64,000 nucleotides of DNA from Clostridiales bacterium (GTDB taxonomy: Bacteria > Bacillota > Clostridia > Christensenellales > Borkfalkiaceae). Where the stretch lies: contig SVHG01000007.1 of assembly GCA_015055965.1 (NCBI GenBank), positions 45,815 through 109,814 of the forward strand. Direction: 5' to 3'. The notes under the pieces are model-generated. The model made no database searches and was not told the origin of the DNA. It was given only the letters and a program-made list of their open reading frames with translations. Position 1 is the stretch's first letter. The number at the start of each line of letters is the position of its first letter. Position numbers and translations under genes: made by a program. Shown here in pieces: positions 9,132 through 63,800 of the stretch.

Positions 9132-9146
9132 TTTATCGACTTATAG
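9132..9146 (+). repeat. TTAATC-TATAG element copy (variant)
   Basis: TTTATCGACTTATAG. Confidence 0.5.
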
Positions 9147-9176
9147 CCCTATTTGTTTACGAAGGAGAAGATTATT

Positions 9177-9791
9177 ATGGAGCATTTAGTAATAGGTATT
9201 TGTGGCGGAACAGGTAGTGGAAAAACCACCTTGGCGCAAAAAATTTACGAAGCGTTAAAGGATGATGCGCTACATATCAGTATGGACTGTTACTATAAAA
9301 ACAACGCGCACTTACCCTTTGAAGAAAGAATTAAAACTAACTACGACCACCCGGACGCGTTTGATAGCGATTTACTCGTAGAGCACGTAAAAAAACTCAA
9401 AGAGGGGGAATCAATCAGTTATCCTACTTACGATTTTTCCACACATCTTCGCGGTGAAAAATGGGTTTATGCGGAAAGTAAAAAGGTTATAATAATAGAA
9501 GGTATTATGCTTTTTGCCGTTCCGGAAATCGTTGAGCTTTTGGATTATAAGATTTTCGTTGATACTGATGCGGACGTACGTATTTTAAGAAGAATGCTTC
9601 GCGACGTTAAGGAAAGGGGAAGAACCTTAGATTCGGTTGCTAACCAATATTTAGAAACGGTTAAGCCCATGCACGAAGCTTATATAGAGCCCTTTAAAAA
9701 GAGATATAGCGATATTATAGTGCCTGAAGGCGGTTATAATAAGAACGCTTTTGATATGATAGTAAGCACTATCGTAGATAAGATTAAATAA
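9177..9791 (+). CDS. udk: Uridine kinase
   Basis: MEHLVIGICGGTGSGKTTLAQKI; AAGGAG RBS before 9177; SMDCYYK, NYDHPDAFD. Confidence 0.92.
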   Translation: MEHLVIGICGGTGSGKTTLAQKIYEALKDDALHISMDCYYKNNAHLPFEERIKTNYDHPDAFDSDLLVEHVKKLKEGESISYPTYDFSTHLRGEKWVYAESKKVIIIEGIMLFAVPEIVELLDYKIFVDTDADVRILRRMLRDVKERGRTLDSVANQYLETVKPMHEAYIEPFKKRYSDIIVPEGGYNKNAFDMIVSTIVDKIK

Positions 9792-9805
9792 GGCCCTAAT
9801 AGCCG

Positions 9806-9820
9806 TTAATCGCGCTATAG
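9806..9820 (+). repeat. TTAATC-TATAG element copy
   Basis: TTAATCGCGCTATAG after udk, T-tract follows. Confidence 0.8.
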
Positions 9821-9881
9821 CGTGGTTTTTTATGATAATTTTATTTAAAACGAAGGCTTTTTATGAAGAAAAACAACAAAT

Positions 9882-9911
9882 AGGTAAGCTTAACTACGGC
9901 TTACCTTTTTT
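9882..9911 (+). terminator. Rho-independent terminator-like hairpin
   Basis: GGTAAGC...GCTTACC followed by T-run. Confidence 0.7.
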
Positions 9912-62252: not shown

Positions 62253-62310
62253 AAACAAAAGCAAAAAAGGGCAGAGCGTAAAACTCTTTCCTTTTTTTGT
62301 TAAAGTGGCG

Positions 62311-62325
62311 TTAATCGCGTTATAG
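62311..62325 (+). repeat. TTAATC-TATAG element copy
   Basis: TTAATCGCGTTATAG then GTGGGCTTTTG. Confidence 0.85.
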
Positions 62326-62467
62326 GTGGGCTTTTGTTAAAAAAAAGAAAAATAAAGGCAAAATTATGCTATTTTATCGTAAATTTATATTTTGACTTTT
62401 TTTTACTATTTGGTATAATGTTAAAGTAAGGTTTATTATATAGTTATAATAAAATTAGGAGTTTGTT

Positions 62468-63763
62468 ATGAAAAAGATTTTTACCGTTGCAATAATAGGT
62501 TGTGGCTCACGTGGGCGCGGTGCTTACGGCAAGAGTATGTTTGCGCGCAAGGATGAATTTAAAATCGTATCTTTATGCGATATTAATCAAAGAATATTAG
62601 AAATTGCAAAAAATACCTTCGAGGTGGAAGATAGCAATTGTTTTACGGATAGCGAACTCTTTTTTGAAAAGAAAAGGGCGGACGTTTTAGTTTTGGCAAC
62701 GCAGGATAGGGATCACGTTTCTATGTGCGTAAAGGCGCTAAGCTTGGGCTACGACGTGCTTTTAGAAAAACCTATTTCGCCAATAGAAAGCGAACTATAC
62801 GAGCTTTTAGAAGCGCAAAAGAAATATGGCGGTAAGGTTATAGTTTGCCACGTTCTTCGTTACGCGCCCGCATTCGTTAAAATTAAACAAATTATAGATA
62901 GCGGTGTTATTGGTAAAATCGTTACAATTGACTGGACGGAGCAGGTTGCCTACTGGCATCAAGCGCATAGCTTCGTGAGGGGTAATTGGCGCAACGATCA
63001 GGAAACCTCGCCTATGATTATGCAAAAGTGTTGCCACGATTTAGATATGCTACAACACTATGCAAATTCTAAGTGCGAAAGCGTATATTCAGTTGGAGAT
63101 TTAGCCTTTTTCAATAGGGAAAATCAACCCGAAGGGGCAGCGGATAGATGCCAAGATTGCAAATATATAAATACTTGCCCTTATAGCGCAGAGCTAGTTT
63201 ACGTAAAGCAGTTCGTAGATATAGGTAGCGTAACCGGTTGGCCCTTTGACGTGGTTGACCTAACTAGACCTATCACGGTGGAAAGCTTGCGTAAGGCTTA
63301 CCAAAGCAACCAGTACGGAAGATGCGTTTTTGCTTGCGATAACAACGTAGTAGATAATCAAACCGTATTTATTAAGTTTGAAAACGGAATAAAGGCAAAT
63401 CTCGTTATGACCGGTTTTACCGGCTACGCGGGCAGAAAGGTTACCATTCACGGAACGCTTGGCGAAATAGAAATGGATGAAAACAGGGATATGCTTAAGC
63501 TTTCCGTATACGGCGAAGAAAAGGACGTTTACGACGTTAGAAAGTCAGAAGCACTTAGCATTAAGGATATAATACAAAGCTCTTCTAAGGATGAGTTCGG
63601 CCACGGCGGTGGGGATGAAATGCTAGTAAGGGATTTCTATAAAGCGCTAACGGAAGAGGGGGATGCAGAAACTACGCTAGCTAAATCTATAGAAAGTCAC
63701 TTAATGGCTTTAGCATCAGAAAAGTCACGCAAAACGGGCGAAAAAATTCGCGTTCATAAGTAA
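62468..63763 (+). CDS. Gfo/Idh/MocA-family oxidoreductase
   Basis: VAIIGCGSRGRGAYG, YDVLLEKPI, MIMQKCCHDLDML. Confidence 0.92.
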   Translation: MKKIFTVAIIGCGSRGRGAYGKSMFARKDEFKIVSLCDINQRILEIAKNTFEVEDSNCFTDSELFFEKKRADVLVLATQDRDHVSMCVKALSLGYDVLLEKPISPIESELYELLEAQKKYGGKVIVCHVLRYAPAFVKIKQIIDSGVIGKIVTIDWTEQVAYWHQAHSFVRGNWRNDQETSPMIMQKCCHDLDMLQHYANSKCESVYSVGDLAFFNRENQPEGAADRCQDCKYINTCPYSAELVYVKQFVDIGSVTGWPFDVVDLTRPITVESLRKAYQSNQYGRCVFACDNNVVDNQTVFIKFENGIKANLVMTGFTGYAGRKVTIHGTLGEIEMDENRDMLKLSVYGEEKDVYDVRKSEALSIKDIIQSSSKDEFGHGGGDEMLVRDFYKALTEEGDAETTLAKSIESHLMALASEKSRKTGEKIRVHK

Positions 63764-63785
63764 AAGAAAAACATAAAAAGTGGGG

Positions 63786-63800
63786 CTATAACTCGATTAA
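63786..63800 (-). repeat. TTAATC-TATAG element copy, inverted
   Basis: CTATAACTCGATTAA after oxidoreductase gene. Confidence 0.75.

Follow-up and report, generated by a model that had tools for sequence, protein, structure and literature searches.

The genome that contains the window (the whole 64-kb stretch of DNA analyzed here) carries several hundred copies of a linear element of about 36 bp. We propose, with a probability of roughly one half, that this element is a chromosome-wide site of DNA architecture, a supercoil apex bent by a protein of the HU family, and not an RNA structure. Judged from sequence, the element appears to be under selection inside genes, it lies at the center of a phased envelope of AT-rich blocks, and it is nearly absent from the terminus as placed by GC skew. 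Moreover, it exists in several dialects, which are distributed among related genera together with a divergent HU paralog.

A dispersed element with a 36-bp conserved unit

The genome is a draft MAG of 2.06 Mb (38% GC, 21 contigs), which is placed among uncultured gut Clostridia near Candidatus Borkfalkia (relatives of the Borkfalkiaceae). A sequence-only reading of the window had described a dispersed core of about 15 nt. This core is real: allowing at most one mismatch, TTAATCNNNNTATAG has 19 matches in the window against 3.0 expected, a number reached by no shuffle, and genome-wide the motif count far exceeds that of a Markov-3 control. All the main copy positions listed in that reading are present. 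Three of its variants (at 9132, 47679 and 48428) were recovered with a position weight matrix (PWM), and the fourth, at 36908, fell below threshold. What it overlooked was the 36-bp unit, the 10-bp phasing, the envelope of ±200 bp, the copies inside genes and the empty terminus.

The conserved unit obtained with an iterated weight matrix is linear and reads AAAgtgccG[T/A]TAATCGmsyTATAGsssrcTTTT. Its left part consists of an A-block at positions −9 to −7, a GC-rich spacer, [T/A]TAA at positions 0 to 3 and YSGMSY, followed on the right by TATAG at positions 10 to 14, a GC-rich spacer and Y-TTTT at positions 20 to 24. The AT blocks of the core are spaced by 10 bp (−8, 2, 12 and 22), and the core is not palindromic, its dyad correlation being 0.40 at +7. 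At a score of at least 16 bits the genome has 476 copies, of which 311 are intergenic and 165 lie inside genes, with gene limits taken from a purpose-made hexamer-based gene caller. There are 23 copies in the window, five of them in genes (Table 1).

Two other features of the window may be mentioned. The sole Rfam match in it is a tRNA gene (50892–50979, plus strand). Within 22560–40794 are genes for GDSL-lipase, GH43 and GH31 proteins of very large size, one of them with InlB-like repeats, next to that of a solute-binding protein; this is probably a glycan-degradation region.

Table 1. Copies of the 36-bp element in the 64-kb window (coordinates are those of the window).
Element	Strand	Core	Context	PWM score (bits)	Remark
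2366..2401	+	2376-2390	in gene	27.9	
5982..6017	+	5992-6006	intergenic	29.7	
9122..9157	+	9132-9146	intergenic	23.6	
9796..9831	+	9806-9820	intergenic	43.2	
14905..14940	-	14916-14930	intergenic	31.6	
16293..16328	+	16303-16317	in glutamyl/glutaminyl-tRNA synthetase gene	33.5	
18033..18068	+	18043-18057	convergent gap	31.6	
19527..19562	+	19537-19551	intergenic	37.3	
22409..22444	-	22420-22434	intergenic	26.7	
34298..34333	+	34308-34322	intergenic	43.8	
36512..36547	+	36522-36536	in GH31 gene	36.4	
40351..40386	+	40361-40375	in GDSL-lipase gene	23.2	
41264..41299	-	41275-41289	in gene	15.2	weak
44663..44698	+	44673-44687	convergent gap	32.6	
45914..45949	+	45924-45938	divergent gap	22.9	
47668..47703	-	47679-47693	convergent gap	32.1	
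48417..48452	-	48428-48442	intergenic	31.3	
50121..50156	+	50131-50145	intergenic	42.0	long-stem minority
56182..56217	+	56192-56206	intergenic	41.4	
57363..57398	+	57373-57387	intergenic	40.5	long-stem minority
59013..59048	+	59023-59037	convergent gap	37.1	
62301..62336	+	62311-62325	intergenic	42.2	
63775..63810	-	63786-63800	intergenic	33.1	

Position relative to genes and selection inside them

The copies had been described as lying just after stop codons. This is borne out by their density, which is highest in convergent gaps (2.47 copies per intergenic kb, compared to 1.3–1.4 in co-directional and 0.33 in divergent gaps), but not by the 165 of 476 copies that are inside genes. As had also been described, the element occurs in both orientations: of the copies in co-directional gaps, 106 point in the same direction as the gene and 96 in the opposite one. 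The lack of an orientation bias toward the upstream gene counts against a loop that is recognized in RNA. The bias toward the leading strand is weak, with 254 of 437 copies on that strand.

Inside genes, the number of copies far exceeds what codon usage provides. A scan of coding sequences only, done with a narrower matrix (hence 130 copies and not 165), found 130 copies of at least 16 bits in the genome, compared to 7–13 after synonymous codons were shuffled within genes. Moreover, alignments of the in-gene copies with close orthologues are free of insertions. The ungapped alignments, together with the excess over codon shuffles, exclude a transposed repeat. They point instead to selection in place, or drive, acting on the DNA sequence of the in-gene copies.

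A phased envelope around the core

AT content oscillates around the element in a manner that is phase-locked to the core. On either flank of the core the ripple has a period of 11.4 bp and can be followed outward for about 200 bp, or about 400 bp in total, at intergenic as well as in-gene copies. The positions of the peaks are identical in two related genomes, G001 and G061, the second of which comes from a different genus and has its own core dialect. In genes the amplitude of the ripple is 0.118/0.110, compared to 0.017/0.021 at decoys that have the same AT pattern and no core. The ripple is therefore not a general property of the genome. Synonymous shuffling lowered the in-gene amplitude from 0.116/0.111 to 0.055/0.062 (s.d. 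0.005); in other words, roughly half of the ripple in genes rests on synonymous codons.

Curvature as estimated over 61 bp with a wedge model is 55.6° for intergenic copies, 46.4° for copies in genes and 37.0° for random positions. Bending or wrapping of the DNA at the element is strongly supported. A periodicity of about 11 bp in bacterial genomes has long been known and its meaning has been debated. The ripple resembles these phased A-tracts in that its period is above 10.5 bp, in that it is present in both coding and intergenic DNA and in that it depends in part on synonymous positions. What sets it apart is its fixed phase relative to a conserved core of 36 bp.

Depletion from a domain placed at the terminus by GC skew

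The element is all but missing from a 344-kb domain made up of contig C14, contig C12 from 70 kb and contig C7 up to 50 kb. The domain contains 4 copies against 94.8 expected (P = 2e-35, a value that is indicative, the boundaries having been drawn after the distribution was seen). The number of convergent gene pairs in it is normal, which rules out an artefact of gene organization. According to GC skew, the empty contig ends fall on the terminus side, and DnaA is encoded on C6, a contig rich in copies; this placement of the terminus derives from GC skew and contig order in draft assemblies. A search of the genome with a B. subtilis-type dif consensus returned nothing convincing.

Relatives were also considered. 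In G061, a genome of genus g16, GC skew along contig C1 is positive up to about 25 kb and negative beyond, and the first 48 kb of this contig are mostly orthologous to C14. Just three matches are found in its first 100 kb, after which the numbers rise. For the retrieved orthologues of six genomes, taken together, the density is 0.124 copies per gene for the terminus set, compared to 0.397 for the remaining genes; the depletion varies among genomes, and in one of them (G051) the copies are too few to judge.

The only four copies of the terminus domain cluster within about 5.5 kb (C14:105–115 kb), perhaps as part of a translocated segment. Beyond the terminus domain, the longest element-free stretch includes one predicted open reading frame that is 30.7 kb long (C21:87938–118600; about 10,220 aa), which is outside the window.

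Dialects of the element and a divergent HU paralog

The pattern TAAN6TATAGN6TTTT is abundant in three sampled genera (g1, g2 and g16) and shows a low excess in two others (g9 and g15). It is at control level in the 13 other sampled genera of the family and in the other sampled families of the order. The core dialect of g16 is TAACGGGCTTATAGCCCCACTTTT. In g1, g2, g9, g15, g16 and g17, the sampled genomes that yielded an HU match contain a divergent HU paralog, 64–100% identical to that of the present genome; the best HU in any other sampled genus has at most 58% identity. In the HU tree, in which several sequences are mistranslated, the divergent paralogs form one group with a support of 0.999. 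This group includes copies from g16 and g15 that are retained alongside a canonical HU.

Genus g17 has the divergent HU and is devoid of the TATAG core. When one g17 genome was searched by architecture only, there were 25 matches where 1.2 were expected; for genera lacking the HU paralog the corresponding figures were 2 and 1.2. The g17 matches led to a core of another sequence, WWWWTGTGMGAAAA, whose flanks are phased. Whole-genome scans detected an excess of this core in all six g17 genomes (11–144 copies compared to 1–5 in the control), five of which had not been used in deriving it, and in no genus other than g17. Gapped-word enrichment did not reveal the g17 dialect.

Among the sampled genera, all of one order, the phased architecture and the HU paralog are found in the same six. 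This shared distribution may reflect common descent, and the link between the paralog and the element is correlative. In g9 and g15 the HU paralog is accompanied by few elements, and the core model for g9 converged on neither a clear consensus nor a ripple. In addition, a few g2 genomes with the paralog have element counts at control level. The present genome has a single HU-family match, encoded at C9:161883–162152, and its product scores below the cut-offs of every IHF model. As a separate observation, in genera g8 and g10–g13 of family f1, many genomes are without any HU-family protein, which is unusual for bacteria.

A proposed IHF-like bend site and alternative explanations

In the mechanism that we propose, the AT blocks spaced by 10 bp and the GC-rich spacers of the 36-bp core would favor a tight U-turn. 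The divergent HU paralog would bind the core in the manner of IHF and bend it sharply. The flanks, about 200 bp on each side, would contribute bends phased at 11.4 bp, a period linked to negatively supercoiled DNA in plectonemic form, and a supercoiled loop with plectonemic arms would have its apex fixed at the bent core. There would be hundreds of such apex sites, mostly at the 3′ ends of genes and excluded from the terminus domain. The proposal draws on the 11.4-bp period, on the likeness to IHF sites and on what is known of plectoneme pinning. An earlier interpretation of sequence periods takes those above 10.5 bp as plectonemic and those below as solenoidal (PMC4132750), IHF pins plectonemes in simulation (PMC9519438), and plectonemes are pinned by intrinsic curvature in vitro (PMC6301789). 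Three points of this mechanism are inferred: binding of the element by the HU paralog, location of the element at a supercoil apex, and a need to leave the terminus element-free for chromosome organization or division.

IHF sites span 35 bp, with an A-tract on the left and WATCARNNNNTTR (PMC8421141). The element agrees with the IHF consensus in A-tract spacing and in AATC[R], and has TAG where the consensus has TTR. Shared with E. coli IHF sites are the length of 35–36 bp, the left A-tract about 8 nt from AATC (giving an AAA-8 nt-AATCRM-NNNN-TAG core), a sharp bend, which in our case is predicted, and the dispersal of architectural sites. In contrast to IHF sites, the element has a second T-tract on the right, a 400-bp phased envelope and a terminus depletion, and its clostridial host has no IHF heterodimer. 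Since the candidate HU-family protein is below IHF cut-offs, the element would at most work in an IHF-like manner and should not be called an IHF site.

Some features count against this mechanism. The exact bases C5, G6 and G14 of the core suggest a more specific reading than is usual for HU. The envelope of about 400 bp exceeds the footprint of any single HU or IHF. Kim et al. reportedly predicted plectonemes upstream of promoters; contrary to that placement, the element avoids divergent promoter gaps.

The strongest rival, although unlikely in our estimate, is that the copies are strong DNA gyrase sites, in which the core would serve as gate segment, with the phased arms wrapped around the GyrA C-terminal domains. 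In E. coli, gyrase sites conform to a symmetric motif of 130 bp, the central 36 bp of which are flanked by two arms with a GC periodicity of 10.75 bp; they are scarcer in Ter, and gyrase accumulates downstream of active units (PMC6379681). This E. coli motif is so degenerate that motif finders miss it. The 36-bp center, the symmetric phased AT/GC arms, the terminus depletion and the preference for gene 3′ ends all agree with such sites and with the strong gyrase site of Mu, and the genome encodes both GyrA and GyrB. However, the envelope extends over ±200 bp with a period of 11.4 bp instead of 130 bp and 10.75 bp, and the core is sharply conserved, unlike the degenerate motif of E. coli. Moreover, the element and its dialects are limited to six genera of one family, whereas gyrase is universal.

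Less likely still, the copies might be nucleoid-occlusion or segregation sites read by a further protein, similarly to the sites of Noc and SlmA, which are missing from the terminus (PMC4331003). The element is likewise dispersed over the whole chromosome except for the terminus domain, and the contig with dnaA encodes a ParB-family protein that has its best score, below the cut-off, to the Noc model. Nucleoid occlusion is a possible reason for the terminus depletion. On the other hand, Noc and SlmA sites are few and short, and those of Noc (about 70) are palindromic, whereas here we have about 480 long, phased and non-palindromic sites, and nucleoid occlusion would leave the 400-bp phased envelope unexplained.

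We give very little credence to the two readings raised earlier, an intrinsic terminator with a recognized conserved loop and a mobile palindrome (REP/MITE). Gene 3′ ends are indeed enriched in copies, and the copies at 50131 and 57373 do have the long stems and T-runs ascribed to them. True hairpins, with stems of at least 7–9 bp, account for about 8–10% of intergenic copies compared to 1–3% expected (for stems of at least 8 bp, 9.1% compared to 1.4%). It is only for this minority that the description of a T-tailed hairpin loop holds. In general, the flanks pair at the level of column-shuffled sequences (0.47 versus 0.46 for intergenic copies and 0.39 versus 0.38 in genes), which counts against a general hairpin or terminator. 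The covariation of flanking stems, put forward as a check, is likewise nothing beyond column composition outside that minority. An intrinsic terminator would have a GC stem and a T-run along the gene, a combination true for a minority of copies only, and the bias in orientation is absent. A role at the level of DNA, independent of orientation, which the sequence-only reading had also raised, is likelier than an ordinary terminator. The mobile palindrome is contradicted by in-gene copies that are ungapped relative to close orthologues and favored by codon choice. Unlike REP/BIME repeats with their RAYT, the element has no general palindromic stem, and no match to the Y1/RAYT transposase family (PF01797) was found in the genome.

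Equally hard to sustain is a DNA-uptake sequence doubling as a terminator: copy number, presence on both strands, enrichment in intergenic regions and at gene ends, in-gene copies arisen by substitution and lineage dialects all recall Haemophilus USS and Neisseria DUS, but the genome search for a ComG/PilB-type ATPase of the competence pilus gave only a weak T2SSE match (289 aa, SpoIIIAA-like), the motif scan found no ComEA, the ComEC-like protein is short, and neither an empty terminus domain nor long phased flanks (400 bp) would be expected. The ComEC-domain protein itself, about 528 aa, is encoded at C17:123180–124763 in this genome without a competence pilus ATPase.

Implications

Taken at its fullest, the reading of the element as an HU-bent supercoil apex would mean that these chromosomes carry a grid of several hundred sequence-encoded apex sites with a dedicated HU reader, excluded from the terminus, the mechanical layout of which is kept while core dialects diverge between genera. 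Each site would consist of a bend core of 36 bp within about 400 bp of DNA phased at 11.4 bp, preserved in genes too. We put forward this fuller picture tentatively, as possible though short of even odds. In these bacteria the signal of about 11 bp is locked to a discrete, countable and lineage-variable element, and natural controls are at hand in the element-free terminus, in relatives without the element and in a dialect with a different core. Three questions can therefore be tested directly: does DNA sequence determine where supercoils lie in bacteria, can a member of the HU family turn into a site-specific organizer of the chromosome, and why does the terminus stay free of such sites?
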